From: an uncultured Clostridia bacterium
Lineage (GTDB): Bacteria > Bacillota > Clostridia > Christensenellales > UBA1750
Assembly (NCBI GenBank): GCA_947625765.1
Contig: CANQPP010000007.1
Span: forward strand, 1 to 64,000
DNA length: 64,000 nucleotides
Reading direction: 5' to 3'
Position numbers and translations under genes: made by a program. The notes under the pieces are model-generated. The model was not told the DNA's origin and searched no databases. It saw nothing but the letters and a program-made list of their open reading frames with translations. Position 1 is the stretch's first letter; every line of letters begins with the position of its first letter. Positions 26,780 to 54,473 of this stretch are shown piece after piece.

Positions 26780-28156
26780 CTATTTCTTTTCCGCGTTCTC
26801 CACCGCCTCGCCGAGGGCTTCCTCGAAGGAGGGGTGCGGACGGACGGCGCGGAGGAAGCCACGGGCGGTCAGGTGGTTGGAGACGGCGAGGGCCAGCTCG
26901 CCGACCAGGTCCGTCGCGCGCTCGCACATGAGCAACGCGCCGAGGAGGACGCCCGTCTCGGCGTGCGCCATCACCTTGATAAATCCCCGCTCGCCCTTGG
27001 CGATCTGCGTGCGGCCGTTGCCGCCCATCAGCGCCTTGCCCACGCGCACCGGGATGCCGCGCTCGGCGGCATCCTTCTCACTGAAGCCAACCTCCGCAAT
27101 CTCCGGGGATGTGTACACGCAACGAGGGATAACGGAAAGGTCAGGCGTGGGTTCTCGTCCCGCTAAGATCTGCGCCACGGCCCTGCCCTCGACGCTGGCA
27201 GCGTGGGCCAGCTGCGGGCCGGGGATCAGGTCGCCTATGGCGTAGACGCCCGGGACGCTGGTCTGGAAGCGCCCGTCCACCTGGATGTGCCCGGCGGGCG
27301 TCGTTTCTGACTGCATTGGCGGCGCAAACAGCCCTTCGCTGTTCGGACGGCGGCCCACCGCGCAGAGGATGTACTGTGCGCGGGCGGTCATTTCCTTGTT
27401 GTTCTCGGTGAAGGTGCATTTCAGCGCTTCGCCGTCCCGCTTGACGCTTTGCAGCATGGCGCCGATGTGCAGACCGATCCCGCGCTTCTTGAAGATCATC
27501 CGCAGGTTCTGGGAAATTTCTTTGTCCATCTCCGGCAGGAGCCGCGGCTGTGCCTCGAGGATCGTCACTTTCGTCCCCATCGCGGAGAACGCCTCCGCCA
27601 TCTCCACGCCGATCACCCCGCCGCCGAGAATCACAAGGCTCTCCGGCAATTCTTCCAGCGCGAACAGCCCGTCGCTGTCGAGCACGCCGGGCAGGTCCAT
27701 GCCGGGCAAGGGCAGCGTCTTCGGGCGCGAACCCGTGGCCAGCAGGATATGTTTCGCTTCGAGAACCGTTTCTCCCTCGTCCGTTTCGATGCGGACACGG
27801 CTCTCGGGCAGCACCTGCCCTTTGCCCGCAAGGACCATCACACCTGCCGCGCGCAGCATCGCCGCCACGCCGTCGGCGAGTTTTTGTACCGTCTCCTGTC
27901 GGTAGGCGAGCATCTCGCCGTAATCGAGCCGCACATTCTCCGTGTGGATGCCGAACGCTTCCGCCGGCCGCGTCGTCCGTAAAATCTCGGCCACGTGGAG
28001 CATGGCCTTGGTCGGGATGCAGCCCAGGTGCAGGCAGGTGCCGCCGAGCTTCCCGCTCTCCACGAGCGCCGTCTTGAGGCCGAGCCTTGCGGCCTCAGCC
28101 GCCGCCGTGTAGCCGCCCGGCCCGCCGCCGATCACGACGAGATCATATTTTTCCAT
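26780..28156 (-). CDS. lpdA: Dihydrolipoyl dehydrogenase
   Basis: MEKYDLVVIGGGPGGYTAAAEAARLG, redox-active GGTCLHLGCIPTKAML, GGGVIGVEMAEAFSAMG. Confidence 0.92.
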   Translation of the reverse strand: MEKYDLVVIGGGPGGYTAAAEAARLGLKTALVESGKLGGTCLHLGCIPTKAMLHVAEILRTTRPAEAFGIHTENVRLDYGEMLAYRQETVQKLADGVAAMLRAAGVMVLAGKGQVLPESRVRIETDEGETVLEAKHILLATGSRPKTLPLPGMDLPGVLDSDGLFALEELPESLVILGGGVIGVEMAEAFSAMGTKVTILEAQPRLLPEMDKEISQNLRMIFKKRGIGLHIGAMLQSVKRDGEALKCTFTENNKEMTARAQYILCAVGRRPNSEGLFAPPMQSETTPAGHIQVDGRFQTSVPGVYAIGDLIPGPQLAHAASVEGRAVAQILAGREPTPDLSVIPRCVYTSPEIAEVGFSEKDAAERGIPVRVGKALMGGNGRTQIAKGERGFIKVMAHAETGVLLGALLMCERATDLVGELALAVSNHLTARGFLRAVRPHPSFEEALGEAVENAEKK

Positions 28157-28158
28157 CC

Positions 28159-29133
28159 TTATACCTCCAGCGGCGCGGTTTCCAGCCACGCCGCAAGCTC
28201 TTTTTCTGTGTCGTTCTCTGAAAATGCCGCGCTCAGCGCCGCCTTTTCAAGCGGAACGCCAAGCAGCTTCTTTTGCAAGCGTTCCGGCAGCTCCGGCTCC
28301 ATCGCGTCCGTTTCGATCTGTATATCAGCGATTTTGTCTTGCACTACACGGAAGCACAGCGTGATCTCGCCCCAGGAGAATCGGCGAGAAAGGGTGTGCG
28401 AAAACAAAGGTTTTTCGCCGTAGATCCAGCGCGGATCGGCAAACTTTTCCTGACGGTTCTCCACGTCGTGCAGGTCTTCCTGCGTGAGAATGAGCGGTTC
28501 AATCTCGCCCACAAAGGCACGCGCAAAGGACGTGCGCAGCGCTTGTTTGAGGTTTTCAACCGTGATCTCGGGCTTTACCTCCCGCAGGTTCACGACCCGC
28601 GACCGCACAGACGGAACGCCCTTCCCCTCGAGCTTCGCCGCGCTCGGGCGCAGGTACCGCTCCACCGCCGACCGCTCCACGTCCACCATCACCGTGCCGT
28701 GGTGGCAGCAGAAGTTTCCGCTCCTGAAAAACGCGCTGCCGGAGACTTTCCGCCCGTTTACTAGAATATCGTTTCGTCCAGAAAATCCCGCGTCGATGCC
28801 AAGGGAGCGCAGCGCCTCCAGCACGACCCGCGTCTGCTGTTCCGCGTAATAGTTCTTTTCATGCGCGAAAAAGCTGAAATTGAGGTTTCCAAGGTCATGG
28901 TACACCGCGCCGCCGCCGGAATTGCGCCGGGCGAGGTGCGCGCCGTCCCGCTGGAGCAACTCCAGCGCGCACTCCCGCTCCGCGTTCTGGTTGCGCCCGA
29001 TGACCACCGTTTGGTCGTTCTGCCACAGGTAGAGGATGCGCTCGTCCTCCCCGCAGCGAAAGAGCAGGTGCTCTTCCAAGGCAAGGTTCCAGTAGGGATC
29101 GTGTTGATCCGTCTCAATATAGGAAAGCCTCAT
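28159..29133 (-). CDS. lplA: Lipoate-protein ligase A
   Basis: NLALEEHLL, WQNDQTVVIGRNQNAERE, RRNSGGGAVYHDLGNLNFSF, KVSGSAFFR; 4-nt overlap with gcvH. Confidence 0.92.
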   Translation of the reverse strand: MRLSYIETDQHDPYWNLALEEHLLFRCGEDERILYLWQNDQTVVIGRNQNAERECALELLQRDGAHLARRNSGGGAVYHDLGNLNFSFFAHEKNYYAEQQTRVVLEALRSLGIDAGFSGRNDILVNGRKVSGSAFFRSGNFCCHHGTVMVDVERSAVERYLRPSAAKLEGKGVPSVRSRVVNLREVKPEITVENLKQALRTSFARAFVGEIEPLILTQEDLHDVENRQEKFADPRWIYGEKPLFSHTLSRRFSWGEITLCFRVVQDKIADIQIETDAMEPELPERLQKKLLGVPLEKAALSAAFSENDTEKELAAWLETAPLEV

Positions 29134-29510
29134 GCTTTGAGCGTTTCGAGATACGCCGTGTATTCCTCGGCGGTCAGTAGTTCCGCCGTCTCCGTCACGC
29201 CCTCCACCCGGATAAGCCACGCGCCATAGGGGTCCTCGTTGAGGCGGTCGGGCTCGTCCGCCGCCGTCTCGTTGATCTCCGCGACCGTGCCGCTCACCGG
29301 CGAAGGGATGTCCGACACCACCTTGGTGGATTCCACCTCGCCGAAGGGTTCCCCCGCGGTCACCGCGTCGCCCGCCTCCGGCAGGTTCACGAACACGATC
29401 CCGCCGAGCTGCGACTGGGCGTAGTCCGTGATGCCCACGAGCACCGCGCCGTCCTCCTCGCGCATCCACTGGTGGGTCTTTGTGTATTGTAAGTCTTCCC
29501 GAATCGTCAT
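29130..29510 (-). CDS. gcvH: Glycine cleavage system H protein (lipoyl carrier)
   Basis: YTKTHQWMREEDGAVLVGITDYAQSQLGGIVFVNLPEAGDAV..VESTKVVSDIPSPVSGTV (lipoyl-lysine context). Confidence 0.93.
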   Translation of the reverse strand: MTIREDLQYTKTHQWMREEDGAVLVGITDYAQSQLGGIVFVNLPEAGDAVTAGEPFGEVESTKVVSDIPSPVSGTVAEINETAADEPDRLNEDPYGAWLIRVEGVTETAELLTAEEYTAYLETLKA

Positions 29511-30262
29511 GGTTTTCCCCTTTCTTTTTCCGCGAGCGCCGCGCAGCCGATGGCTGAAAGATACGCAGCGTGTTCCGGCACCGTGACCGGCTTTTCCAGC
29601 ACCGCCTCGGCGTATTTGGCAATCCCCGGTATTTTTGTGAGGCCTCCGGAAAGGTAAATTCTGTCGCAGTCTACCTTGCCGAGCAGCGTTTTGGACTGCG
29701 TCAGTATTTGCACGAGCACCGCCCGGAGGATCTCGTCTTCCGAAATGCCCTCGGCGATCCGCTCCACGATCTCGCTCTGGGCGAACACCGCGCAGGTGGA
29801 CGAAAGCCGCAGATTTGGGAGCTTGCCGTCCGAAAGATCGAGGCTTTCAAACGGGACGCCCAACCTATGCAGCGTGTTCTCTAAGAACATCCCGCAGCCC
29901 GCCGCGCACTTGTCGTTCACGAAAAACGAGAGCAGCTTTCCGTCCCACTGGCGGATGAGCTTCGTGTCCTGCCCGCCGATGTCGAGCACCGTCTCCGCTT
30001 CGGGCGCGACGCGGTGAACGCCCGCCGCAAGGGCGCTGAGTTCGGAGACCGCGCGGCTGCCGCCAACGTTCTTCCTGCCGTAGCCGCAGCTCACCACGGG
30101 AATACCCCCGTATGCTTCGCGGAGGCTTTGCAGCTTCTCCGCAAAATATTCCTTCTGACGGACGGGCGTTTCCTCCGCGCGGAGTGCCTCGACTTTCCCG
30201 GCTGCCCCCAGCACACAGAGCTTCGTGTAGGTGGAGCCGATGTCGATCCCGATGCCGCTCAT
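29507..30262 (-). CDS. 2-hydroxyacyl-CoA dehydratase activator / BadF-BadG-BcrA-BcrD ATPase
   Basis: MSGIGIDIGSTYTKLCVL, VLDIGGQDTKLI, NDKCAAGCGMFLENTL, SSTCAVFAQSEI, YLSGGLTKIPGI. Confidence 0.92.
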   Translation of the reverse strand: MSGIGIDIGSTYTKLCVLGAAGKVEALRAEETPVRQKEYFAEKLQSLREAYGGIPVVSCGYGRKNVGGSRAVSELSALAAGVHRVAPEAETVLDIGGQDTKLIRQWDGKLLSFFVNDKCAAGCGMFLENTLHRLGVPFESLDLSDGKLPNLRLSSTCAVFAQSEIVERIAEGISEDEILRAVLVQILTQSKTLLGKVDCDRIYLSGGLTKIPGIAKYAEAVLEKPVTVPEHAAYLSAIGCAALAEKERGKP

Positions 30263-31398
30263 ACGATCTCCCTCAAGATGTCCAGCTGCGCCTTCGCGCG
30301 CTCGAGGTCGAGATATTCCCGGTCGATCATGTCGATCTCGAGCTCCACCTGTGGCAGGTCGATGTATTTTGCCGAGACGAAATCGCACTTGCAGCTCTTG
30401 TTCCGCAGGGAGATCGCGGCCTTTGCGCCCGAGCGCTCGATGCAGCCCTGCAGCCGCTCGCGTTTCGTCTTCGCCGAGAGGTTCAGAAACGTGTAGTTGT
30501 ACGCGGTGAAAAGCTGCTCGAAGGGGTCGCCGCCGCTGTAATCGAGGCTCCACCAGGTGATGTAATTCGAGCCGCAGATGCGGAAGTCCGGCAGGAGTTC
30601 TTTCAGGTACCGCTGCGGGTGATACCAAAGCGGATAGCCGAGCCAGAAGATGGGAGTGCGCTCCTTATCCGCCTCGGGCGCTTCGACCTGAATGTCGTAC
30701 ATCGCGTCGTACAGAGCGGCGGTCTCCGGCTTGCACCGGTCGGTGATGAGGTAGGAAATGCCGTCAAAAAGCGCGGTCGGTTCGATGCACCGATCCGAAA
30801 GCAGGCCCGCGACGCGGTTCCATGCTGCGACGCTCCTTTGGCTGTTTTGAATGAGTTCCGCGAGGCGGGCTTCGTCCAGCTTGTTCCCGCTGAGCGCTTC
30901 CATCTTCGCGATGAGGTCTTTGTGTTGCGCCGTCACATATGGCAGCGCGCGCCCCTTCTCCACGCTCTCGCCGGGGTAGTCCAGCACGATGAGCGGGACG
31001 TGGTATTCCTCCGCCAGGAGGTTCCACCAGTTCGGAAGCGTGTTGCACTGGTTGTTGGTAGCGATCAGCACGTCGGGCTTCGGTGGCAGGCCCCGCGGGG
31101 CCTTGCCGGTGGCCAGCGCACCGTTGAAGCACCCGGAATACGCGCAGCAGTCGAGGCAGAGGCCGCCTCTTTCGCTCTCCTTGAGCAGCGCCTGCTCCTG
31201 CCCGCTGGCCGCGATGACGGCGGCGTAGCTTTCCGGGTAGATATACTCGATGTCGAGCGCCTCCAGGATCTCCACCGGCGTGAACGCCGTGACCCACGCC
31301 ACCTTTCGGGTCGGCGCTTTTCCCTTTGCGTACTTGGAAAAGTCCTTGTAGTAGTCCCGCATCAGCTTCGCCTGAAGCTGCAAATAGAGCTGTGCCAT
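30259..31398 (-). CDS. 2-hydroxyacyl-CoA dehydratase family subunit (HgdB-like)
   Basis: YIYPESYAAVIAASGQEQALLKESERGGLCLDCCAYSGCFNGAL; PLIVLDYPGES; FRICGSNYITWWSLDYSGGDPFEQL. Confidence 0.85.
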   Translation of the reverse strand: MAQLYLQLQAKLMRDYYKDFSKYAKGKAPTRKVAWVTAFTPVEILEALDIEYIYPESYAAVIAASGQEQALLKESERGGLCLDCCAYSGCFNGALATGKAPRGLPPKPDVLIATNNQCNTLPNWWNLLAEEYHVPLIVLDYPGESVEKGRALPYVTAQHKDLIAKMEALSGNKLDEARLAELIQNSQRSVAAWNRVAGLLSDRCIEPTALFDGISYLITDRCKPETAALYDAMYDIQVEAPEADKERTPIFWLGYPLWYHPQRYLKELLPDFRICGSNYITWWSLDYSGGDPFEQLFTAYNYTFLNLSAKTKRERLQGCIERSGAKAAISLRNKSCKCDFVSAKYIDLPQVELEIDMIDREYLDLERAKAQLDILREIV

Positions 31399-31410
31399 GT
31401 TTTCCCCTCC

Positions 31411-32356
31411 TTACAGCAAGTCCGCGAACGTTTCGATGGCGAGCGCGGCGTTCTTCGCGCTGCTGCCCGTCTCCGTCACCCGGAGCACCGGGATCTGGAG
31501 TTCATCGAGCATCCGCTTGTAGGAAGGGAAGAGGTAATCGTAGGGCTCGCAGTACTTCTGCGTGAGGAAGATGACGCCCTGGACTTGTTTTTGCAGAAGC
31601 TCGTCCCGATCTGCTTTAAGGATCTCCGCGAAAGCGTCCTGCGAGGGGGAGGGCAACCCGGCAAGGAGGCTCTTTGCGATATTCTCGTAGATATCGCCCT
31701 CTGGGGACACTTCCGGCGCGAAGATGAGCCGTCTCGACTCGGGCAGACGGTCGCCGACGATGTTCATCCCCGCCGTCTCGATCTGTTGGACGAGGCCGGT
31801 CCCGGCCTGCGTTGAACCCACAAGAAAAACCCTTGGGGACGCAGAAGAGCTGCCCACGGAAATCTCCGTCGGCACTTCCTGCTCCCACAAGGGTTTTTGC
31901 AGAAGGTTGTGTATGGTTTTGAGGTATGCGCTGTAACTCAGTTCCGGGAGAGCTTCGTACAGCGTGCGCAGGGCGCGATTGCGGGCGTTGATCCGCTCAG
32001 CACGCTCCGCGATGCTGGTGATCTTTACACCGTAATGGTTCTCAACAGCAGCCTGGTATGCACGGACGCTTTCCGCGAGAAATGCGATAGCTTCGCGGTC
32101 TTTGCGCGCCGGAACAGGGAGCTGATATAGGAACTTATGGTACCCCCCCCCCGATATAATTTTTTAGTGTTCGGCTGCTGTCGCAGGTGCGGGGGAACAC
32201 CGCGCCGTCGATAGTATCATCTTCCAGCACGCGAGCGATGAACTCTGCAGCGTATTCGCAGTAGTGCGAAATTCTTTGCTTCCCCTCGTATCCGAAGAAC
32301 CGCTCCGTGTCGCAGATCTGTTCCGGGATCAGGGTAGATAGGGATAGAATGTGCAT
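31411..32356 (-). CDS. 2-hydroxyacyl-CoA dehydratase family second subunit; split by a +1 frameshift at a G10 tract (phase OFF as sequenced)
   Basis: N-term ORF 32135-32356 (..VFPRTCDSSRTLKNYIGGG) and downstream frame (YHKFLYQLPVPARKDREAIAFLAESVRAY..31411) join exactly if the tract is 9 G; 945 nt, 314 aa. Confidence 0.82.
32143..32152 (-). repeat. Poly-G10 homopolymer tract (C10 on + strand)
   Basis: GGTAC-C(n)-GATAT; frame check confirms 10 nt. Confidence 0.9.
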
Positions 32357-32374: not shown

Positions 32375-33459
32375 CTATGGTAATTGCGCAAGCTCTTCTT
32401 CGGTCAGATACGGTGTGATGATCTCTTTATACTTGTCGTAAGCCTCGTCCCAGCTCTCGTACCCCCCCCCCCGGTTTTTTCAGGGAAGTCATAGTGGTCG
32501 AGGAGGTATTGGGAGAGAAACTCCGTGACTTTGATTGCGCCATGAAGATTTGTATGCTTCCCATCTTCTCCAACATAATCCTGTGATAAATCTAAGCCAA
32601 TTTCATCAAAATGATCCATCATATCCAAGACAGGATACCCCCTGCTTTCAATATAATCCTTAGCTGTATTATACTGCGCCGTCCTGCTTTCTTCTTCTGT
32701 GAACTGTGGAACAATAACAAAAAGAATATTAACTTTCTCTCTATCGCAATAATTCAGAATATCATTAAGTACTTTAGAGCCATATTCAGCCAAGGGTTCT
32801 TTTTTGTCAACTATCATAAAATTTGAAGTCATATCGTTCTTCCCACTAAGGAAATCATCGAATATCCGCACGCCTTTTAACCCAAGAGTTTCTTCAAAAT
32901 GGAAATCCTTCCAAGTCAAGCCTTTCCACCTAGTATGAAATCGTAGCAGCGGAAAGAAAAACTCCATAATACTGTATGCATCTCTGCCATCTCCAACATT
33001 ATATAGATATTGAACCATATTGATCTTTGTCATTGATAGCGGGAAAAAATCTGCTATGTTATGAACTACACCACTGGTTGCTCCACTCATAACGAGTTGG
33101 TTGACGTTTGCAATAATCAACGCTTGTGGTTGTGTTTTTCTAGCTTCCTCTATTAGAAAAGGGACTGCCGACATTGGTTGTGAAGAGGTCGAGAGTGGAT
33201 AAACCGTTATCCCTGTCTGTTTCCACGCAATGGGCGCTAACCAATACATATAAACATGACTTGCTCCAAGATAAACTGCATCTAAAGTGTTGGGGATTTC
33301 TTTGTAAAACTCATATACCGTCTCGTATTCATACTGGGCATGTTCATTGAACTCGCCTTTGGTGGCTACTAATTTTGATGAACTGTTTAGCAATAGAATA
33401 AATAACACAACGAACACACATACCCTTATATATTTGCTATGCTTACAGAGTAATTTCAT
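32375..33459 (-). CDS. SGNH/DltD-like hydrolase, MBOAT partner 1; C-terminus set by a G11 tract (sequenced frame ends at 32404)
   Basis: AVYLGASHVYMYW, SQPMSAVPFLIEEA, FVIVPQF, HTNLHGAIKVTEFLS. The G9/G12 frame ends at 32375, 18 nt before the next gene. Confidence 0.75.
32462..32472 (-). repeat. Poly-G11 homopolymer tract (C11 on + strand)
   Basis: CGTAC-C(n)-GGTTTTTT; frame check confirms 11 nt. Confidence 0.9.
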
Positions 33460-33478
33460 AGAGCAAATGTATCCTTTC

Positions 33479-35014
33479 TCAGAACCCCCGATAAATAAAG
33501 TCTGCTGGATCATACCCCGGCCCGTACATGCCAAAAATCAAGATTCCGAAGATCAGCGCGTACCAGATCGCCCAGCGGAAGACGAGATTCTGCTTGGCGA
33601 TCTGTTCCCGCAGGCTGCCCTTTTCCTGCAGGATCGAGACGATCAGCAGCACCAGCAGGGCGATCACCATCAGGATGAAGTTTGGCGCATCGAGGCCCAG
33701 CTTGAAGAGCGAGCCATCGAAGAATATCTCCGGGTTGTTCGGAAACAGGCCTGCCTTGATCGTCCGCAGCGTGGCCATGAAGCCATCGATCCTAAAGAAC
33801 ATGTTACCGATGACCGCAAGGCCAAACACGCGCAGCGACTGGAACAGGTGCCAGCTGAAGCAGTTTGTGTTGATCTTGAGCGCGGCGATGATCTTCTTGA
33901 ACACCGGCTCCAGCACCTGCGCCATGGCGATCAGGAACCAGAACCAGATGCCCATGCCGATGATGTATTTCCAAGCTCCGCCATGCCAGAGGCCCATAAA
34001 CAGCCAGACGCACAGCATGCCGAGGATGCTGGGAATTTGTTTGGCGGCTTTCTTGCCCCAATGCGCCTTGATCCACTTCGTCATGCCTTTCCACAGACGG
34101 GAACGCATCACGGGATAGAGGATGTAGTCCTTCAGCCAGGCGCCCAGCGTCATGTGCCAGCGCTGCCAGTATTCCTGCACGCTTCGGGAAAAGAGAGGGC
34201 TGCGGAAGTTCTCCGGCAGGATGATCCCGTAACACTCCGACGCGCCGAGGATGATATCCATGCAGCCGGAGAAGTCCGTGTAGAGTTGGAACAGGAACGA
34301 GATCGCAGCGACCCAGATGTAGAAGCCGTTATAGGTAACCGTATCCGCATAGATGGTGTCCACGATCACGCCAAGCCTCGCCGAGATGACCAGCTTCTTG
34401 AAGATGCCCCACAGCATCCGCTGCATGCCGAAGGCGATCTGCTTGGAGTCGAACTTGTGGCCGGCATAAAGCTGGTCCTTCACCTCATTGTACCGGGTGA
34501 TCGGGCCGGAGGTCAGCTGCGGCCAGTACCCAACGAACAGCGCGGTCTTCACCAGGTTCGTCTGCGCCGGGCAGATGTCCCAATAAACATCCAGCAGGTA
34601 GCCAACGACCGACATCGTATAGAAGCTGATGCCCAGCGGAGCGAGAAGGTTGAGCTGCGGGATACGGGCAGAACTTCCCACAAGAGATGAAGCGAGATTT
34701 ATATTGTTGATAAAGAAGTTGCTGTATTTGAGCGTCGCCAGGATGCCCAGGTTCACGACAAGCCCCAGCACGAGCCACAGCTTCGCCTTTTTGCCGTTCC
34801 CTGTCTCTTTCGCCATTGTGATGCCGTGCGTGCACAGCGTCGTTACGAGCACGGCCGCTACCGCATAGATGATGGTGTAATCCGCTGCGGAAAAGTGAAA
34901 GAACGCCAGGCTGAACACAAACAGCGCGATCCACTGGAAGCGCTTGGGGATGATATAGTACACCCCGAGAGACAAGATGAAAAATAGCAGAAATGGCAAG
35001 GATGTTATAGTCAT
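33479..35014 (-). CDS. MBOAT family O-acyltransferase 1
   Basis: LTSGPITRYNEV, FGMQRMLWGIFKKLVIS, LYTDFSGCMDI, WHMTLGAWLKDYILYPV, LFMGLWHGGAWKYI. Confidence 0.92.
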   Translation of the reverse strand: MTITSLPFLLFFILSLGVYYIIPKRFQWIALFVFSLAFFHFSAADYTIIYAVAAVLVTTLCTHGITMAKETGNGKKAKLWLVLGLVVNLGILATLKYSNFFINNINLASSLVGSSARIPQLNLLAPLGISFYTMSVVGYLLDVYWDICPAQTNLVKTALFVGYWPQLTSGPITRYNEVKDQLYAGHKFDSKQIAFGMQRMLWGIFKKLVISARLGVIVDTIYADTVTYNGFYIWVAAISFLFQLYTDFSGCMDIILGASECYGIILPENFRSPLFSRSVQEYWQRWHMTLGAWLKDYILYPVMRSRLWKGMTKWIKAHWGKKAAKQIPSILGMLCVWLFMGLWHGGAWKYIIGMGIWFWFLIAMAQVLEPVFKKIIAALKINTNCFSWHLFQSLRVFGLAVIGNMFFRIDGFMATLRTIKAGLFPNNPEIFFDGSLFKLGLDAPNFILMVIALLVLLIVSILQEKGSLREQIAKQNLVFRWAIWYALIFGILIFGMYGPGYDPADFIYRGF

Positions 35015-35059: not shown

Positions 35060-36463
35060 TTACACGAGAACGAATTGATCGTTGTCCCAACGGAACACCT
35101 TACTGCATACCTGTTGTTGGTTGTATCGGTCGAGAATGACCACTTTCAGCAGGTCGTTTTCTGCAGTTATTTGTATTGGTTCGTCGCTAAAGTGAACCTC
35201 AAATGTTCCTGCTTTTTCAAAAAGAGGAATGCTTGCCAGACCTTCTTGCCCCGATATCGAAAAGCACTTCAAATAATCATTATTATCATTGATTGATATT
35301 GTTTCATTTTCTACCAATTTTAAAGATGATTCCCCTTCCACGAGATTATGATAATATGCATCAAATTCACCTGTTCCGTCACTCACAATAACTGTATAAT
35401 CTTTTCCATTGATCCATCGCAAAAGACTGTCAACCTTTGTCTCCTGCTTCATATAATAGTTGAGTGCATCTATCCGTTTTGTGGAATATAAATCTTCTGC
35501 AAAGTCTTCTGGATACATCTCCTTAATTTCTGTGCTAAGCTTAAATGACCCATGGTAATTCATGTGTGCTGTATCCCAAAAATACTTTTGTTCGTAGTTG
35601 TTTAGCCAATCGACTGTGATCTCCGGGTATTCTTTTTGCAACGAATCATAATACCTATAAAGCTCGTCTCTATATTTTGCTGAAAATACTGTGTTTTTGG
35701 GGAGCGGAAGCTTTATGATTCGAACTTGTATCTCGTTATCTCGACACAGTTCAATGATTTTTCGATAATATGTATCAAGAAGAGGGGTTACGTAAAAAGA
35801 ATCATAAGAAATTTCGGTATCATCAGAGTATTCATTCCATCCAGAAATATATACTCCCTCCCGCATTTCGATTTCTTTCATTGCTCCAAGGTTATATTCC
35901 TTTCGTTGATTAAACCTTGCATTCATAATCGATGTCATATATCTGTTGGGCAAACCCAAATCAAATTCCGGTATATCCAAAATCTGGTTCATAAATTCAG
36001 CACGGCCTTCATGATAGCATATCGCATCCACAAACATTTGCAATTCTTGTTGAGGTTTATATCTATGCGTATAGACCACTCTCCTCCAGAAAATATCTAT
36101 ATCCCACCGTCTAAAATGATCATCGCTAAAGCTAACATAGCATACCCTGGGTGATCCATTATGCTCTAACCAATCCTTCAGTGTATAATAGTTTTCTAAT
36201 GGCGAAGTTCCCCCCAAGGCCAAATTCAAACAGCTGTCCGAGAGCACCGCTGGCAAATAACTTGCATTTGCGGTGGAATCCCCAAGAACAATGACGTCAT
36301 ACTGTTTATCCTGTGTTGTGTTCGCTTTTTCCTTATTCCAGATATAGTATGGTGCTTCTCCGTCCGCAAAGGCTAACAGGTTGAACCTTGCATACAGACA
36401 CAGAAACAACAGCGGCAGAAGGATGCACGCGCATGTCGAATAGAATCGGATCTTCTTTCCCAT
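35060..36463 (-). CDS. SGNH-like/AlgX-DltD-like protein, MBOAT partner 2
   Basis: YDVIVLGDSTANASYLPAVLSDSCLNLALGGTSPLENYYTLKDWLEH; DTAHMNYHGSFKLSTEI. Confidence 0.75.
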   Translation of the reverse strand: MGKKIRFYSTCACILLPLLFLCLYARFNLLAFADGEAPYYIWNKEKANTTQDKQYDVIVLGDSTANASYLPAVLSDSCLNLALGGTSPLENYYTLKDWLEHNGSPRVCYVSFSDDHFRRWDIDIFWRRVVYTHRYKPQQELQMFVDAICYHEGRAEFMNQILDIPEFDLGLPNRYMTSIMNARFNQRKEYNLGAMKEIEMREGVYISGWNEYSDDTEISYDSFYVTPLLDTYYRKIIELCRDNEIQVRIIKLPLPKNTVFSAKYRDELYRYYDSLQKEYPEITVDWLNNYEQKYFWDTAHMNYHGSFKLSTEIKEMYPEDFAEDLYSTKRIDALNYYMKQETKVDSLLRWINGKDYTVIVSDGTGEFDAYYHNLVEGESSLKLVENETISINDNNDYLKCFSISGQEGLASIPLFEKAGTFEVHFSDEPIQITAENDLLKVVILDRYNQQQVCSKVFRWDNDQFVLV

Positions 36464-36474
36464 ATCTTCCTCCG

Positions 36475-38016
36475 CTAAAACTTCTGGTACATAAAGTCCT
36501 GCTCGCTATAGGTCCCATACATACCAATGGTAAAGACAAGTATCGCGAACATCAGGATGACGACCCACTGAAACACAAGATTCTGCTCGGACAGCCATTT
36601 CCGCACGTTTTTTCCCTTTTCCTGCAGATAGGAGACGGCCGCCAACAGGAACAGGCCAAACAGCATTGCAATAAGCTGCTGAAAATCGAGTCCCAGTTTC
36701 AAAATGGAACCATCCAGCAAGATCCCTGGGTTCCAATGAAAACCAGCCCTGATCGTTCTTAAAGTGGTCATGAACCCGCCTAGCCGGAAAAACATGTTGC
36801 CGATGGTGACCAGAACAAAAACGCGCAAGGATTGGAACAACCGCCAGCTGAAGCATTTGGTGTTGATGTGCAGGCGCGCGATGATCTTCTTGGAAAGCGG
36901 TTCAAATATTTGGGATAGTGCGATCAGTGTCCAGAACCAAAGCCCCATGCCAATGATGAATTTCCATCCTCCGCCGTGCCAGAGGCCCATAAAGAGCCAA
37001 ACGCACAGCATCCCCAGAATGCTCGGTATCTGCTTTGCCGCCCTTTTTCCCCAGTGCGCCTTGATCCACTTCGTCATGCCTTTCCAGACTCTGGAACGCA
37101 GAACGGGATAGAGGATATAGTCCCGCATCCAGCTGCCGAGCGTAATGTGCCAGCGCTGCCAAAATTCCTGTACGGAACGGGAGAAGAAGGGCGTGCGGAA
37201 GTTTTCAGGCAGCGTTACGCCATAGCACTCGGAAGCGCCCAGCACGATGTCCATACAGCCGGAAAAGTCTGTGTAGAGCTGGAACATGAAGAGCGCGGCC
37301 GCCAGCCAGATATAGAAGCCGTTGTACGTAGCAGTGTCTGCGTAGATGGTGTCCACGATCACGCCCAGCCGCGCAGAGATGACCAGCTTTTTGAACACAC
37401 CCCATAGGAGCCTCTGCAGGCCAAAGGTCACGTTTTCGTAATCGAAAGCGCAGCCTTCATACAGTGCTCGTACCCCCCCCCGATTCAAATTATACCGTGT
37501 GATCGGTCCGGAGGTCAGCTGCGGGTAATAGCCCGCAAAAAGCGCAGTTTTGAGGATGCTGGGCTGGGGCTCTGCGATGCCCCAATAGGTGTCGAGTAAA
37601 TAACCCATGACGGAGAACGTATAGAAGCTGATGCCCAGCGGCGCTGCCAGCTGCGGCACGGGAAGCTGCAAAGAAATATGCACCAGGGAAAACACCCGGT
37701 TGGCATTGTTGATAAGGAATCCGCTGTATTTGAGCACAACGAGCATCCCGGCATTGACCGCGATCCCAATGGCCAGCGCCAGCTTTGCTATTTTTCCCTG
37801 TTCTTTTGCCTTGGCCCGCCCGATCCACTTCGCACATAGGGTCGTTACAATTATGCTGGCCAACAAATAAACGATCGTGTAGGGCGTGGAGGATAACATA
37901 AAGAAGAGGATGCTGAAAACCAGCAACGCTATCCAGCGAAACTTTTTGGGAAGGATATAATATACCACAAGCGATACGGCGAAAAAGAAAAAGAATTGAA
38001 ATGAGGTCAGGGACAC
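36475..38016 (-). CDS. MBOAT family O-acyltransferase 2, with G9 tract in frame (phase ON)
   Basis: Close paralogue of 33479-35014; SGPITRYNLNRGGVRALYEG at the tract; WHITLGSWMRDYILYPVL; LFMGLWHGGGWKFI. Confidence 0.92.
   Translation of the reverse strand: MSLTSFQFFFFFAVSLVVYYILPKKFRWIALLVFSILFFMLSSTPYTIVYLLASIIVTTLCAKWIGRAKAKEQGKIAKLALAIGIAVNAGMLVVLKYSGFLINNANRVFSLVHISLQLPVPQLAAPLGISFYTFSVMGYLLDTYWGIAEPQPSILKTALFAGYYPQLTSGPITRYNLNRGGVRALYEGCAFDYENVTFGLQRLLWGVFKKLVISARLGVIVDTIYADTATYNGFYIWLAAALFMFQLYTDFSGCMDIVLGASECYGVTLPENFRTPFFSRSVQEFWQRWHITLGSWMRDYILYPVLRSRVWKGMTKWIKAHWGKRAAKQIPSILGMLCVWLFMGLWHGGGWKFIIGMGLWFWTLIALSQIFEPLSKKIIARLHINTKCFSWRLFQSLRVFVLVTIGNMFFRLGGFMTTLRTIRAGFHWNPGILLDGSILKLGLDFQQLIAMLFGLFLLAAVSYLQEKGKNVRKWLSEQNLVFQWVVILMFAILVFTIGMYGTYSEQDFMYQKF
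37473..37481 (-). repeat. Poly-G9 homopolymer tract (C9 on + strand)
   Basis: CGTAC-C(n)-GATTC; frame check confirms 9 nt. Confidence 0.9.
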
Positions 38017-38040: not shown

Positions 38041-38769
38041 TCAGATCAAGCTGCCCCCGGAAACGAGGAAGTTCTGCCCGGTGACAAAGCCGCTTTCTCC
38101 AAGAAGCAGGTATTCGAGCAGCGGCACGACGTCGTTCACCGACGCGTTGCGGCCGAGCGGGTTCTCCGCGGCGTTTTTCTCCACCATGAGATGCGAAAGG
38201 GAGCCAACGAACTTCGTTTCCATCATGCTGGGCGATACGGCGTTGATCTGGATATTCTTAGGCGCATACTCTACCGCCAGCCCACGCAGGCAGCCGAGAA
38301 GCGCATATTTGGCGGCAAGGTAATCGTTCATAAACGAGGGCGGCGTACCCACCGTCGCGGACGACAGGACCGCCGCGACGCGCCCCTCCCGCCGTTTGGC
38401 CATCTTCGGCAGAAACGTCTGCAGGACGACCACGAAGGAGCGGAGCTGCGTTTGCAGCATCTGTTCATAATTCTCCCAGGATAGGGAAGAAAAGCGCACG
38501 GTCCTCAGCCTTGCAGACGGGCAGTGAAGGATGTGGGTCACCGGCCGGTCGGCCGCCTCGACATCGTGCACGAAACGCTGCGTGCTCTCCATATCCGTAA
38601 AGTCCGCTGAGAAAAGCCGAAGGTTGGGAATATCCTGCTGCAGTTGCTCGAGCTCCTCTTTGGAACTGTGGTAGTGTGCAAATACCGTATCAAATTGGTT
38701 CGCCATTCGCTTGATCGCGGCGATCCCAACGGCGGACGAGCCTCCCAACACCAACAGATCACGTTCCAT
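38041..38769 (-). CDS. SDR family oxidoreductase
   Basis: LVLGGSSAVGIAAIKRM, AVLSSATVG..NDYLAAKYALLGCLRGLAVEYAPKNIQINAVSPS, GQNFLVSGGSLI. Confidence 0.88.
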   Translation of the reverse strand: MERDLLVLGGSSAVGIAAIKRMANQFDTVFAHYHSSKEELEQLQQDIPNLRLFSADFTDMESTQRFVHDVEAADRPVTHILHCPSARLRTVRFSSLSWENYEQMLQTQLRSFVVVLQTFLPKMAKRREGRVAAVLSSATVGTPPSFMNDYLAAKYALLGCLRGLAVEYAPKNIQINAVSPSMMETKFVGSLSHLMVEKNAAENPLGRNASVNDVVPLLEYLLLGESGFVTGQNFLVSGGSLI

Positions 38770-39184
38770 CGTCTCTCACCCCCGCTACGATGCTGCCACG
38801 CGAGACCAGGGTCCCTTCCTGGTTCGTTATCCGCGTCTTGATCCGAACGAATTTCTTTTCTGTGTCGACCTTTTCGACCTTGCCATAGACCCGCAGCGTA
38901 TCGCCTACGAACACGGGCGAGGCGAACAGGGAATCCACCTCGTACAGCAGGCAGCGTTCGCCCGGAAGGTAGACGCCTGCCAGCGTCGAATAAAACGAAG
39001 CCGTCAGCATCCCATAGACCACCCGGGAAGGGTACCCGAAGGACCGGGCATAGTTTTCATCATTGTGCAGGGGATTTACGTCTCCGCTGATCTCAAGAAA
39101 CTTCCGCAGCATTTCTTCCGTCACCTTTGTGGAAAAGCACGCATCCATCCCCACCTGCATCTCCTCGATCCTGTAGCTGTTCAT
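38759..39184 (-). CDS. MaoC-like dehydratase/hydratase
   Basis: VTEEMLRKFLEISGDVNPLHNDENYARSFGYPSRVVYGMLTASFYSTL. Confidence 0.88.
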   Translation of the reverse strand: MNSYRIEEMQVGMDACFSTKVTEEMLRKFLEISGDVNPLHNDENYARSFGYPSRVVYGMLTASFYSTLAGVYLPGERCLLYEVDSLFASPVFVGDTLRVYGKVEKVDTEKKFVRIKTRITNQEGTLVSRGSIVAGVRDDGT

Positions 39185-39581
39185 AGGTCAACAGCTCCAC
39201 AAGGCCGATCTGTGCGGAATACAGGAATAGGACCGTACCCCCCCCCCCGCCTAAAATCGCGGGTGCGGGCGTCGGTTCGTCGATCTTCAGAAATCCGATA
39301 TCTTCCAGCATCTTTGCGTCTCTTTCCATGTCGACCGTCTCATAGCAGATATGGTACGGCGCGTTCTTGTATGTACGGATGAGGTTCGCCACGACGGATT
39401 TCTCCGACTTCGGACTGACGAGCTCTACGGTGTAGCCGTCCTTTTCCCAGAACGAGATGTCCACGTCCCGAATCGGGTCGTAGAGGACCGCTTGTTTTTC
39501 CGTGTACCCAAGCGAGGAGAAGACCTTTTCGGCCTTCTCCGATCGCTTTACCAGGTATCCGATGTGATGGACCTTCATCAT
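39093..39581 (-). CDS. VOC family (glyoxalase/methylmalonyl-CoA epimerase-like) protein with G11 tract in frame (phase ON)
   Basis: MKVHHIGYLVKRSEKAEKVFSSLGY..PYHICYETVDMERDAKML..APAILGGGGGTVLFLYSAQIGLVELL. Confidence 0.82.
   Translation of the reverse strand: MMKVHHIGYLVKRSEKAEKVFSSLGYTEKQAVLYDPIRDVDISFWEKDGYTVELVSPKSEKSVVANLIRTYKNAPYHICYETVDMERDAKMLEDIGFLKIDEPTPAPAILGGGGGTVLFLYSAQIGLVELLTYEQLQDRGDAGGDGCVLFHKGDGRNAAEVS
39238..39248 (-). repeat. Poly-G11 homopolymer tract (C11 on + strand)
   Basis: CGTAC-C(n)-GCCTA; frame check confirms 11 nt. Confidence 0.9.
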
Positions 39582-39820
39582 GCCAAGGTTTCCTGGATGA
39601 GGTCGACCATGGCACCCACGTCCTTGAGGCCCTGCACGGCCTTCATGTCGAACTTGATCCCGAAGTCGTCCTCGACCGCAGAAAGCAGCATGATGTGGGA
39701 AAGGGAGTCCCAGTCCTCGATGTCGGCGGCGGTGGTGGTCTCGGTCAGCTCGATGCTCTCATCGTCGAACACGTCGCGGAAGACCTCGGTCAGCTTTGCA
39801 AAAATTTCGGTTCTGTTCAT
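39578..39820 (-). CDS. Acyl carrier protein
   Basis: 80 aa; DIEDWDSLSHIMLLSAVEDDFGIKF phosphopantetheine site. Confidence 0.93.
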   Translation of the reverse strand: MNRTEIFAKLTEVFRDVFDDESIELTETTTAADIEDWDSLSHIMLLSAVEDDFGIKFDMKAVQGLKDVGAMVDLIQETLA

Positions 39821-39838: not shown

Positions 39839-41620
39839 TTAGTTTTGGATTTGAATGACATGCTGTTTCTTTTCGTATCCGTTCGTGAGATCCAGCTCCC
39901 AGCGGGTATTGCCCTGTTCGTCCTCATCCACCTTCGTAAAGCCCTGCAGAGCGTAAAACTCCTTGACCATCGCGTTCTTCGCGGTGGGGTAGTAGTGCCC
40001 GATGAGTTTCTTGAGGCCGCGCTTTTGGGCTTCCGCCGCCAGCTCGTCCATCATGGCGAACTCCATGTCGCGCTTTAAGACCCGGCAGCTCATCAGCCAC
40101 AGGATGATGTCCAGTGCATCCTCCTTTTCTTCGGCGATCACCACAGACACCACGCCGTTGTCGCCGAAGCAGTCCTCCAGCTTCCCGTACAGCGTCACCG
40201 TCTTGGGGTCGGCTGCCGCCGCCTCGATCTCCTCCTGCGTGTAGCGCTTGGTGGTGAGATTGAACTGGTTTGACTTGTTGGTGAGTTGGGCGATGCGGGA
40301 CATGTAGAGGCTCTCGAAGGACTTGATGGTGGCAGTCATCTTGAGGGACAGGAGGTAGTCCTCGTAGTTTGCGAAGCTGGCCTGCATCTCCGCGCGCTTC
40401 ACGTTCTCCTTGTACATCTCGTTGCGCTTGAGGTCGTCCTTCGAGAGGTTCGTCGCCTCGAAGAACCCGCTGCGGTCGATGACGTCGATATAATGCTCCA
40501 CCTTCCCGATCTCCGGCGCCGGCACGCCCGGCACCTGCTGCCGGATGATCGCCCGCTCCGCTGGATTGTCGTCCACGAACACGAAGCTCTCCGGGAGAAG
40601 CGTCAGCTCCTGAGCCATCTGCGTGAGATTGAGGCTTTTCGGCTCCCAGTTGGCCTTGATGGAGATAAACTCTTCAGGCGGCAGGACGCTGTCCGGGTGG
40701 TTCAGCCCGGCGAGGGCATTCTCCCGCTCGTTCTTCGAGACGACATTCAGCAAGACGCCCAGCTTCTTGTGTGCCTTGAGGTACTGCTGGAACTCGGAAT
40801 AGACCTGCCCCATGCTGGTCTCCGGCCCGATGGCGAGGTTCTCCACGCCGTCGTCTCCGACGATGCCGCCCCAGAGTGTGTTGTCTAAGTCGAGCGCGAA
40901 GGCCTTCTTGTTCTTGCCGAACAGGGATTTGATGATGTTGCTCACGCTGAACGCCAGCCGCGGGATGGCGTCCATGCAGCAGCAGTATTTGTACATGTGC
41001 CAGTAGAACGGATCCGACCACTTTTCGAGGCCGTAGTCCGCCGCGAGGTAGTTGATGTCGTTGATGAAGAAGCCCTCGTGGGTCTGGGCGTACCCGTAGA
41101 ACTCCATGTTCAGCCGGGTGATGAAGTTCACGCGGCCGTGGATGTTCGAGGCGTCCTGATTCCCGAGCAGACGGTAGAACGGATACTCGAAGTTGTTCTG
41201 GATGATGGGGCAGTGGTATGTCTCGCGGAGCTTGTCCCACATGGAGATGAAGTGGGCCATGGTCTGGGCGAGCATGGCGTCGATCTCCTCCGGGGTGTTG
41301 TCCACTTCGGGATATGTATTGATGTTTCGGTTTGAGGTGTGGATGAAGATGACGTCGGGCTTGAGCGCCACGAGTTCGGGGTTGTCGAACATCGCGTCCT
41401 GCCAGTACTGGGCGTATTCCGATTCAAAGAACACCGGCTTGATGCCCTGATCCAACAGGAACAGCTCAAGCATGTCCTTGATGTCATGCGTCGTGGATCC
41501 GCCGAGGATGGCGACGCGCTTTTCCATGAGGTTCGGCGAAGCCAAAAGCTCGCGCTTCAGCGACTTGCGCTTGCGAAGGATGAGCTGGTTGTCAAAGGGG
41601 TATTGTAATGTGGGGTGCAT
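39839..41620 (-). CDS. FkbH-like HAD-IIIC family protein
   Basis: KAFALDLDNTLWGGIVGDDG, FVFVDDNPAERAIIRQQVPGV, TNKSNQFNLTTKRYTQEEI, C-terminal GNAT-like region. Confidence 0.92.
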   Translation of the reverse strand: MHPTLQYPFDNQLILRKRKSLKRELLASPNLMEKRVAILGGSTTHDIKDMLELFLLDQGIKPVFFESEYAQYWQDAMFDNPELVALKPDVIFIHTSNRNINTYPEVDNTPEEIDAMLAQTMAHFISMWDKLRETYHCPIIQNNFEYPFYRLLGNQDASNIHGRVNFITRLNMEFYGYAQTHEGFFINDINYLAADYGLEKWSDPFYWHMYKYCCCMDAIPRLAFSVSNIIKSLFGKNKKAFALDLDNTLWGGIVGDDGVENLAIGPETSMGQVYSEFQQYLKAHKKLGVLLNVVSKNERENALAGLNHPDSVLPPEEFISIKANWEPKSLNLTQMAQELTLLPESFVFVDDNPAERAIIRQQVPGVPAPEIGKVEHYIDVIDRSGFFEATNLSKDDLKRNEMYKENVKRAEMQASFANYEDYLLSLKMTATIKSFESLYMSRIAQLTNKSNQFNLTTKRYTQEEIEAAAADPKTVTLYGKLEDCFGDNGVVSVVIAEEKEDALDIILWLMSCRVLKRDMEFAMMDELAAEAQKRGLKKLIGHYYPTAKNAMVKEFYALQGFTKVDEDEQGNTRWELDLTNGYEKKQHVIQIQN

Positions 41621-46531: not shown

Positions 46532-48176
46532 TTTGGGTCCTCCTTTCTTTAATGCCTTCTTGTATTTTGTAACATAAAAATGCTGCGAATCTGAAGATGA
46601 TAAAATTACCAAAAAGCCATAGGTTATAGTAGTACATGAAAATCAACGCAGGCGCTGTCAAAAACGTTAGAACCATCCGCACTTCCATAACTAAAGCAAC
46701 AAATAGATACTTAGAACGACTAATTGCGAGGTACAATGTGAACGCAATGATCGCTGCTGTTTGAGCGTAATAATTGAATGTCCAACGAGTAAGGTTATAC
46801 CCATCCCCTTCCGCGTTAAGGATCTCTCCAACTTTGATCCGAAGCGTGTTACTTAGTGGACGATTCAAATGATAACTATGAGAAAATACTTGCAAGGACG
46901 GTCTCTCGGAAGTATAGAGCCAACCTATAAAACCAGCGCTTTCCTCTTTCCAGCTATCGAGAAAGGTACTTATTCTCTCGCTCATATATATCATCGGATA
47001 TCGAAGCACCAGCTTAACATAAGCCAACTTAAAACCATTATAGTCTTCATCCGAGAAATCATTTTGAATCAGTTGGGACCGATCATTCCAATAAAGTTGA
47101 ATTCCGTCGGTGCCATTTTCATATCCATTCATTATCGTGTCTATATTGATAACCTTATCTATTTCAGTCAGGATTTCTGTCTGCTCATCCTCAGCAGCCT
47201 GTTGGATCAGCGGGGAGATCGGACGTAATACTCCGGTGAGATCATAGTCTTTATTAGGGCTCAACCCATACCGTTGAGGCAAATAGAGGGTGCCGGTCAA
47301 AACAATACAGGAAATCAGTACCCCCCCCCGGAGCATTTTTTTCGACTTAACAGGATAAATTACAAAGAGCAGAGCAGGAACCAAGAAGCAATATAGAATA
47401 CCTTCTGTTCTCCAGTTGGCAAGAATTGCTGTCAAAACAACAAGAGTCATGAGGCGTTTGGGACGCTCCCATATATCTGCGCAATCAATAACTTTAGGTT
47501 CTAGAATTAGTACAACAAGAAGAACCTCCAGCATGCAATACAAGGATAGTCTTAGTGGCCACATATTATGGTCGAAAGTCGGTATAAAGAAGAAAGGGAT
47601 AAGCAGGAGATACCTCCATTTTGTCTGATTCCATATACGCAGTCTTGCTACTACATATACGCAGTATGCAAATATGATCGATATGATCGTGAATTGGACA
47701 AATACTATCCCGGCCGGAAAAGGTGCTACAAATAAAGCAAAGATATAAAAAACGATCGTCAAGTAGTGTTGCCAATAATTCAATTGCCCGTTTGCCATAA
47801 AAGCATTAAAGACATTGACATCATCCCATCTCCAGGCGCCAGGATATATCAAAATCAGAATAATACCGTTTAAAATTTCATAAACAAGAAATGCTGCTAT
47901 TGCCATCTGTACTGGCTTTTCATTTCTCTTTGTCCAGAGCTCTTGTATATAATATAGAGCACAAAAACAAATCGGGATATAAAGTGTCCGCAATTCAGTA
48001 ATCGTCTCCGATTCTGTCTGAAAAGCATACATCTTCGTTGCCAGAGACCATATATACAAAAACAAAGTTCCTAATAAAGGAAACACATAGCGCTTATATG
48101 ACAAGTATTGTTTCTGGTCCAAGCAAATCACCTCCCTGTCCTGATTATCATGCATTATTAAGCAGACAGAAAACAT
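46524..48176 (-). CDS. Multi-pass membrane protein (DUF6020-like), with G9 tract in frame (phase ON)
   Basis: About 12 hydrophobic segments; KKMLRGGVLISCIVL at the tract. Confidence 0.65.
   Translation of the reverse strand: MFSVCLIMHDNQDREVICLDQKQYLSYKRYVFPLLGTLFLYIWSLATKMYAFQTESETITELRTLYIPICFCALYYIQELWTKRNEKPVQMAIAAFLVYEILNGIILILIYPGAWRWDDVNVFNAFMANGQLNYWQHYLTIVFYIFALFVAPFPAGIVFVQFTIISIIFAYCVYVVARLRIWNQTKWRYLLLIPFFFIPTFDHNMWPLRLSLYCMLEVLLVVLILEPKVIDCADIWERPKRLMTLVVLTAILANWRTEGILYCFLVPALLFVIYPVKSKKMLRGGVLISCIVLTGTLYLPQRYGLSPNKDYDLTGVLRPISPLIQQAAEDEQTEILTEIDKVINIDTIMNGYENGTDGIQLYWNDRSQLIQNDFSDEDYNGFKLAYVKLVLRYPMIYMSERISTFLDSWKEESAGFIGWLYTSERPSLQVFSHSYHLNRPLSNTLRIKVGEILNAEGDGYNLTRWTFNYYAQTAAIIAFTLYLAISRSKYLFVALVMEVRMVLTFLTAPALIFMYYYNLWLFGNFIIFRFAAFLCYKIQEGIKERRTQNE
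47321..47329 (-). repeat. Poly-G9 homopolymer tract (C9 on + strand)
   Basis: AGTAC-C(n)-GGAGC; frame check confirms 9 nt. Confidence 0.9.
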
Positions 48177-53617: not shown

Positions 53618-54473
53618 TTATCCATGCAACGTAATTGTTCCGCTGCCCCCTGTTATATAAAATGTATCTCCAACAATCATATTTCCCAAATCGCTGACCA
53701 TAAAGGTTGCTAGCGCAGCGATTTCCGATGGCATTGCATACCGTTTGGCAGGGCAGACATCATTATAAATAATGTCACCTTGATTTTTACCAAGCATAGG
53801 TGTTGCCGTGGGCCCTGGAGCAATAGCATTGACGATGATATCATAAGGGAGCAACCTATCTGCCATTCCCAGCGTCAGACCACGCACTGCCCATTTAGAC
53901 ATTTGATACGGGGTCCACGCTGGGCGTAGGGCAGAGGAAGAAGTCACATTAAGGATATGCCCATGTACTCGGTTTTCAATCATATTCTTCGCCGCTGCCT
54001 GAGACATGAAAAAAGTGCCTTTTGCATTGATATTCATGATATTGTCATACTCTTGTTCCGACATATCTAAAAAATCGTTTTGGGACAATATCCCGGCAGA
54101 ATTGACCAGAATATCAATATGTTCTTCTGGGAAAAGGGCTTCGGCAGCTTTCACTTTCTCTGGCAAGGAGCAAACATCTAAAACATCAATAACAATTGAT
54201 GAGACGTTTCTACACCCCCCCCCCCCCAAATTTTTCGAGGCATTTCTCAAGTTTTTCCTCGGATGTCCCTGCAATGATTACCTTCGCGCCACTTTTCAAA
54301 AAGCTATCCGCTATTGCCATGCCAATTCCTCCACTTCCGCCTGTAATTAGCGCAACTTTTCCAGTTAGCAATTCAGTCGTGTTGATTGGGGTTGGAATAG
54401 GTATTTGCTTTTCTGTTTTCAAGAGCATAACAGCAGATTTAACGAGATGTTTGAGTTTATTCATAATCTTCAT
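53618..54473 (-). CDS. SDR family oxidoreductase, split by a +1 frameshift at a G13 tract (phase OFF as sequenced)
   Basis: N-term ORF 54210-54473 (KVALITGGSGGIGMAIADSFLKSGAKVIIAGTSEEKLEKCLEKFGGGG) and downstream frame (CRNVSSIVIDVLDVCSLPEKV..53618) join exactly at 12 G; 855 nt, 284 aa. Confidence 0.85.
54215..54227 (-). repeat. Poly-G13 homopolymer tract (C13 on + strand)
   Basis: TACA-C(n)-AAATTT; length follows from the two flanking ORF frames. Confidence 0.88.

Follow-up and report, generated by a model that had tools for sequence, protein, structure and literature searches.

Why should the genes for a lipoyl carrier, its ligase and its dehydrogenase be joined to those for a relative of the 2-hydroxyacyl-coenzyme A (CoA) dehydratases? 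GcvH-type proteins and lipoate are normally tied to the glycine cleavage system and the 2-oxoacid dehydrogenases. The question is raised by a 64,000-nucleotide stretch of DNA, here called the window, from an uncultured Clostridia bacterium (contig CANQPP010000007.1, positions 1 to 64,000). Six consecutive minus-strand genes in the window encode two HGD-D proteins (HgdC and HgdB, together HgdBC), a BadF-type ATPase activator (Act), a GcvH-type lipoyl carrier, a lipoate-protein ligase (LplA) and a dihydrolipoyl dehydrogenase (Lpd). The content, order and end coordinates of this module, and its 4-nucleotide overlaps at 30259–30262, 29507–29510 and 29130–29133, are exactly as given in the initial annotation, and Pfam and NCBIfam bore out the families named there. 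Two HGD-D subunits with a BadF-type ATPase activator constitute the gene set expected of a 2-hydroxyacyl-CoA dehydratase (HadBC/HgdAB). The source genome encodes no HGD-D protein besides this pair, and its one GcvH is that of the module.

A conservation scan of the genome_contigs collection with HgdB, with flanks compared by tblastn of the window genes, retrieved 51 loci at 59–94% identity, save one Treponema locus at 45%. The carriers belong to Lachnospiraceae, Oscillospiraceae, other Clostridia and a few other bins, many of them from rabbit and ruminant gut. Since the next homologues, beyond these 51 loci, lie near 30% identity, the HgdB of the module forms a sharply separate clade. All 29 well-flanked loci (at least 4.5 kb upstream and at least 4 kb downstream) have HgdC and Act, 28 have GcvH, 26 have LplA, 26 have Lpd, and the complete lipoyl trio is found in 25. 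The neighbourhood HgdC-HgdB-Act-GcvH-LplA-Lpd is thus conserved in dozens of genomes, far beyond chance, and the coupling is real and widespread. It is found in two arrangements, that of the window and a second one, FkbH-ACP-GcvH-Lpd-LplA-HgdC-HgdB-Act (ACP, acyl carrier protein). Pairwise distances of HgdB and of each partner are correlated (Mantel 0.85–0.90, 0 of 2000 permutations), showing common inheritance without separating co-function from co-transfer. The source genome is the only one of 397 in its own order with a close HgdB, and the phylum sample of 399 holds one other, at 68% identity; yet other families commonly carry the module, which has therefore probably moved horizontally, and the idea that it is a peculiarity of the source taxon was rejected.

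What, then, do the lipoyl genes serve? The lipoyl Lys is retained in all 44 module GcvH sequences. The absence of GcvP noted near the operon extends to the whole source genome, and no GcvT-like gene was found among the conserved neighbours of the 51 loci, a search that was not extended to GcvT genome-wide. Of 34 carrier genomes, 31 lack full-length GcvP and all but three lack a full-length 2-oxoacid dehydrogenase E2 acyltransferase. Because most carriers have neither, the module GcvH is usually the sole evident lipoyl protein, with no other evident client; two further Biotin_lipoyl matches in the source genome are probably biotin proteins. The six genes thus travel together, usually without a glycine cleavage system, and no GcvP was found linked to any module GcvH. 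Where GcvP does occur, either it stands beside a separate GcvH (L018) or GcvH is missing from the module locus (L042 and L065). The Gastranaerophilales bins L042, L043 and L047 all carry modules without GcvH, and two of these three genomes encode GcvH elsewhere, one beside GcvP. Three origins for the lipoyl genes were rejected: a remnant glycine cleavage system, because of the missing GcvP; a lipoyl relay to E2 enzymes, for most genomes, because no full-length E2 is present; and other GcvH-like systems (SirTM/macrodomain, Hdr), because no such neighbours are conserved in the 51 loci.

In the rumen genomes L049 and L053–L057, the six genes stand alone amid unrelated neighbours, which places the lipoyl genes with HgdBC and not with the FkbH pathway described below. 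Given the conserved neighbourhood and the lack of any module-linked GcvP, a dedicated lipoyl-H carrier serving HgdBC is well supported as an association. In this respect the earlier suggestion of a dedicated carrier recycled by Lpd stands; of its two options, electron or acyl transfer, the former is tentatively favoured. In many relatives (e.g., L028, L033, L035 and L041), LplA is short, ~235 residues against 324 in the window, perhaps through absence of the C-terminal accessory domain.

The catalytic pair most resembles (R)-2-hydroxyisocaproyl-CoA dehydratase HadBC with its activator HadI (PDB 3o3m-o), sharing the HadB fold, the three [4Fe-4S] cysteines, Glu55, a beta subunit and a BadF-type activator. 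The best PDB match of the AlphaFold2 (AF2) model of HgdB (confidence score pLDDT 90.9) is HadB (3o3m_A/3o3o_A; structural similarity, TM 0.87–0.88), followed by BzdO (0.84); a profile search likewise gave HadB 154 bits, BzdO 63 and MbdO 60. C85, C118 and C336 of HgdB align with the cluster ligands of HadB and BzdO and are kept in 51 of 51 clade members and 27–28 of 28 generic homologues, and the invariant E56 is equivalent to HadB Glu55 and BzdO Glu65. An open-site [4Fe-4S] cluster with three Cys ligands is predicted for HgdB, within a HadB-type fold. In the activator, the cysteines of the NDxCAAG and LSSxCAVFA motifs are both invariant in 44 sequences. The model of the HgdC orthologue of L017 (AF2 pLDDT 91.4) has BzdN and HadC as about equally good best PDB matches; C33, C58 and C268 of HgdC are invariant and C15 is near-invariant.

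The module nevertheless differs from HadBC. Identity is ~24%, HgdC is shorter, the loci carry lipoyl genes, and no CoA transferase, 2-hydroxyacid dehydrogenase or acyl-CoA dehydrogenase lies alongside. Above all, HgdB has four extra cysteines, C84, C90, C222 and C338, which are near-invariant in the 51 clade members, essentially absent from 28 ordinary homologues and, by sequence, flank the cluster-binding loops. These cysteines do not make the pair a double-cubane reductase, an option raised in the initial annotation and rejected here on the cysteine pattern: HgdC has no cysteines matching BzdN C263 and C293, the extra cysteines of HgdB lie elsewhere, the six Cys per subunit for an [8Fe-9S] cluster are lacking, and the double-cubane model NF040772 scores far below its cut-off. 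The double-cubane cluster protein DCCP (6eno) belongs to the same superfamily and has an ATP-driven activator in common, whereas the module encodes a heterodimer in which the second-cubane cysteines are not conserved. Class I benzoyl-CoA reductase BzdNO (PMC11971306) has the same fold (TM 0.84), and the cluster cysteines and the Glu65 equivalent are kept in HgdB; however, HgdB has L121 for the catalytic His131 of BzdO, the equivalents of the BzdN ligands C263 and C293, as listed in that paper, are not Cys in HgdC, and one activator stands in place of the BzdP/Q pair. A benzoyl-CoA reductase-like enzyme was rejected because the active-site His and the double-cubane ligands are missing.

The strongest clue to the putative substrate is the FkbH-ACP-MBOAT partner system, which co-occurs with the module. 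FkbH was found in 33 of 37 carrier genomes and in 10 of 250 genomes sampled from the phylum (two of these 10 being carriers; Fisher p ~3e-31), a p value that overstates independence because the carriers are not phylogenetically balanced against the background, although the contrast of 89% with ~3% stays large. The FkbH proteins score 270–301 bits with TIGR01686 and have an ACP adjacent. Unlinked FkbH is present in all rumen and Gastranaerophilales carriers tested, mostly together with ACP and MBOAT. In the unlinked FkbH-ACP-MBOAT operon of rumen carriers (L125–L130), the MBOAT gene is usually followed by one for a small HAD phosphatase-like protein (MNIVCLDMEGVLVPEIW...), which is possibly part of the pathway. 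FkbH loads a glyceryl group from 1,3-bisphosphoglycerate onto ACP, as established for polyketide pathways, and DltB-type proteins transfer acyl groups from ACP to extracytoplasmic polymers. Since the MBOATs here are DltB-like, the acyl sink is likely a surface polymer. The known substrates of HadBC are (R)-2-hydroxyacyl thioesters, and D-glycerate has the (R) configuration.

From these elements, it is tentatively proposed as plausible, at rather less than an even chance, that HgdBC is an oxygen-sensitive, HadBC-type radical enzyme whose substrate is glyceryl-ACP and whose product goes into surface acylation, and that lipoyl-GcvH, recycled by Lpd, is its dedicated dithiol reductant. FkbH would convert 1,3-bisphosphoglycerate into D-glyceryl-S-ACP, and the ATP-driven activator would place one electron on the three-Cys [4Fe-4S] cluster of HgdB, so that the (R)-2-hydroxyacyl thioester would form a ketyl radical and lose its 2-OH. 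The resulting enoxyl radical would not be deprotonated to an enoyl product; instead, it would be reduced by thiols, namely the four extra cysteines of HgdB and then dihydrolipoyl-GcvH, a use of dithiols likened to that of ribonucleotide reductase with thioredoxin. GcvH, loaded with lipoate by LplA, would be re-reduced by Lpd with NADH. The deoxygenated acyl-ACP (e.g., 3-hydroxypropionyl), sometimes tailored by MaoC, SDR or VOC proteins, would finally be moved by the DltB-like MBOAT onto the surface polymer. Dehydratases of the HadBC family need catalytic electrons only; the dedicated two-electron system of GcvH, LplA and Lpd, together with the four new cysteines of the catalytic subunit, therefore suggests a net reduction by HgdBC. 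The stronger claim, that the module represents a new, lipoyl-dependent class of radical deoxygenase, removing the 2-OH from carrier-bound glycerate and feeding phase-variable surface acylation, is possible but doubtful.

Electrons might instead enter at the activator, in a route from NADH through Lpd and GcvH to Act and HgdBC that would replace ferredoxin or flavodoxin, whether HgdBC catalyses a redox-neutral dehydration or is an ATP-driven reductase. GcvH directly follows the activator in loci with the order HgdC-HgdB-Act-GcvH, and activators of the BadF type require a reductant. For an enzyme that needs electrons in catalytic amounts, however, a dedicated three-gene supply is excessive; the lipoyl group, a two-electron couple at ~−290 mV as generally known, is a poor match for an Fe-S centre that accepts one electron, and the extra cysteines of HgdB would be left unexplained. 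This route is judged unlikely. Somewhat less likely still is a role of lipoyl-GcvH as the acyl carrier, in which a 2-hydroxyacyl group (glyceryl or other) would be moved from ACP to dihydrolipoyl-GcvH, HgdBC would dehydrate the lipoyl thioester in place of a CoA ester, and Lpd would merely keep the carrier reduced. GcvH is generally known to offer its partner enzymes an intermediate held on the lipoyl group, and neither a CoA transferase nor a hydroxyacid dehydrogenase is among the conserved neighbours; yet no acyltransferase for transfer between ACP and GcvH is conserved in the module, and, because DltB-type MBOATs take ACP donors, two additional transfers would be required.

Lower again stands a classical redox-neutral 2-hydroxyacyl dehydratase, which would yield 3-hydroxyacrylyl- or malonic-semialdehyde-ACP for subsequent reduction by an SDR, the lipoyl genes serving to protect or repair the thiols of HgdB. 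The HadB-like fold and ligands agree with it, as do the SDR and MaoC genes of the window and L026, but most carrier loci have neither of these two genes while nearly all have the lipoyl genes, and it is judged improbable. That GcvH is a LipL-like relay lipoylating other enzymes as part of general lipoate metabolism, as GcvH is generally known to do in Bacillus-type lipoate assembly, with HgdBC a bystander, is largely refuted and very improbable, since most carrier genomes encode no full-length E2 recipient and the linkage persists in both gene orders and in many genera.

Several points weigh against a thiol-driven reduction of glyceryl-ACP. We infer what HgdBC acts on, whether ACP or CoA carries it, and in which direction the reaction runs. 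The extra cysteines of HgdB, placed by sequence, may face the active site or may be ligands of another cluster. No FkbH match was found in the L017, L023, L025 and L065 genomes, perhaps because these assemblies are incomplete; L044 has no linked Lpd, L040 has neither a linked Lpd nor a linked LplA, and no confident GcvH was found in the L043 genome. The Treponema HgdB (L065) has all but one of the four extra cysteines, even though in that genome GcvH adjoins GcvP, and most carrier loci were taken from metagenome bins, with one rabbit study contributing many of these. The L065 locus, from termite gut, holds a 45% identical HgdC-HgdB-Act set with no local GcvH downstream, on a contig that begins inside HgdC.

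In the window, the operon does not begin with hgdC, at 32356, as had been assumed for the six genes; it runs on upstream to FkbH at 41620. Its order from the 5′ end is FkbH-ACP-VOC-MaoC-SDR-MBOAT-SGNH-MBOAT-SGNH-HgdC, continuing into the rest of the module with no sizeable gap between genes (Table 1). It includes no polyketide synthase. Terminator-like sites are no more frequent than in shuffled sequence, and promoter-like sites are weakly above it.

The second HgdB-like subunit of the initial annotation, HgdC, is indeed an HGD-D protein, but its reading frame is broken in the assembly. From the ATG at 32356 the frame enters a 10-G tract and stops at 32135, the remainder (31411–32163) lying in another frame; with 9 G it is continuous (...KNYIGGGYHKFLYQLP...), and intact orthologues of ~313 residues occur in 47 loci. 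Further minus-strand poly-G tracts in the window accompany that at 32143–32152, at 32462–32472, 37473–37481, 39238–39248 and 47321–47329; another poly-G tract lies at 54215–54227. These tracts are 9–13 long, five precede TAC, and they cluster on the coding strand of a surface-polysaccharide region; two (32143–32152 and 32462–32472) break reading frames. Between 32 and 47.4 kb of the window, the minus strand has five copies of G8-TAC, against two in the rest of the 2.5-Mb genome. G8+ tracts followed by TA are repeatedly present in the carrier loci, and tract lengths differ between them: the SGNH1 tract is 9 G long and in frame in L018 but 11 G long and out of frame in the window, the Act tract at one and the same place has 9 G in L033 (11655) and L047 (3670), leaving the gene open, against 8 G in L042 (11654), where it is split, and Lpd of L063 is split at a poly-G tract (3127). 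From their pattern, the poly-G tracts of the module look like phase variation, which is the natural reading, homopolymer assembly errors being a possible alternative. An SDR-like gene at 53618–54473 is apparently also split into two frames by the 13-G tract at 54215–54227, a third apparent off state.

Table 1. Module genes, upstream operon genes and the hgdC tract in the window.
Feature	Coordinates	Strand	Evidence
Dihydrolipoyl dehydrogenase (Lpd), redox motif CLHLGC	26780..28156	-	TIGR01350 478 bits
Lipoate-protein ligase A (LplA) with C-terminal accessory domain	28159..29133	-	TIGR00545 347 bits; PF10437
GcvH-type lipoyl carrier, lipoyl Lys63 in ESTK	29130..29510	-	TIGR00527 126 bits, above cut-off; PRK01202 151 bits
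BadF/HgdC-type ATPase activator (archerase)	29507..30262	-	TIGR00241 171 bits
hgdB-like, HadB-type catalytic alpha subunit	30259..31398	-	PF06050 120 bits; AF2 pLDDT 90.9
hgdC-like, HadC/BzdN-type beta subunit, frameshifted in assembly	31411..32356	-	PF06050; orthologues; AF2 model of L017 orthologue
10-G tract within hgdC, out of frame (9 G in frame), candidate phase-variation tract	32143..32152	-	
Second SGNH-like protein, no Pfam match, out of frame past 11-G tract 32462-32472	32378..33534	-	
Second DltB-like MBOAT	33479..35014	-	TIGR04091 129 bits, below cut-off
SGNH/AlgX-like protein, labelled from context alone, no Pfam match	35060..36463	-	Homologues adjoin MBOAT in other loci
DltB-like MBOAT acyltransferase	36475..38016	-	PF03062; TIGR04091 145 bits, below equivalog cut-off
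SDR/FabG-FabL-like reductase	38041..38769	-	PF13561; several NCBIfam matches below cut-off
MaoC-like dehydratase	38759..39184	-	PF01575
VOC/methylmalonyl-CoA-epimerase-like protein	39093..39581	-	PF13669; TIGR03081 below cut-off
Acyl carrier protein, DSL phosphopantetheine site	39578..39820	-	PF00550
FkbH-family HAD protein, predicted glyceryl-ACP synthase	39839..41620	-	TIGR01686 270 bits, cut-off 146.65

Parts of this arrangement have precedents in systems of other function. The module GcvH passes TIGR00527 with its lipoyl Lys and the Lpd passes TIGR01350, as do the H-protein and Lpd of glycine cleavage, but the link here is to HgdBC. Sulfur oxidation via LbpA is a reported exception to the usual roles of lipoate (PMC6067878), and the LbpA of this sHdr system is likewise a GcvH-like lipoyl protein with its own ligase, serving a redox system other than glycine cleavage; in contrast, Hdr-like genes are absent among the conserved neighbours of the 51 loci, and the module GcvH falls below the TIGR03077 and NF045810 cut-offs. 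FkbH and ACP are shared with the glyceryl-ACP pathways to tetronates and methoxymalonyl-ACP, and a DltB-like MBOAT with ACP for export acylation is shared with DltABCD, to both of which the module adds a radical dehydratase and a lipoyl carrier. The plasmalogen synthase PlsA/PlsR (PMC12838417; PMC9702350), an anaerobe reductase said to be related to the dehydratase superfamily and to act on a substrate that is not a CoA ester, is similar by description, although its substrate and gene set differ.

No paper joining FkbH, GcvH and 2-hydroxyacyl dehydratases was found in the open-access papers searched, and the coupling of HgdBC with lipoyl proteins is, as far as the literature searched shows, undescribed. 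Overall, the module encodes a relative of the 2-hydroxyacyl dehydratase/activator systems whose cofactor partner is new and whose substrate class is probably new as well. Because isolate-type records are among the carriers (Eubacterium plexicaudatum ASF492 and bacterium 1XD42-1), the proposal is testable. If true, the link to a ketyl-radical enzyme would give lipoate a new role and extend the use of the dehydratase superfamily beyond CoA esters and amino-acid fermentation. Common gut Clostridia would further be expected to carry an undescribed surface acyl group, one made from an intermediate of glycolysis and apparently requiring ligated lipoate.

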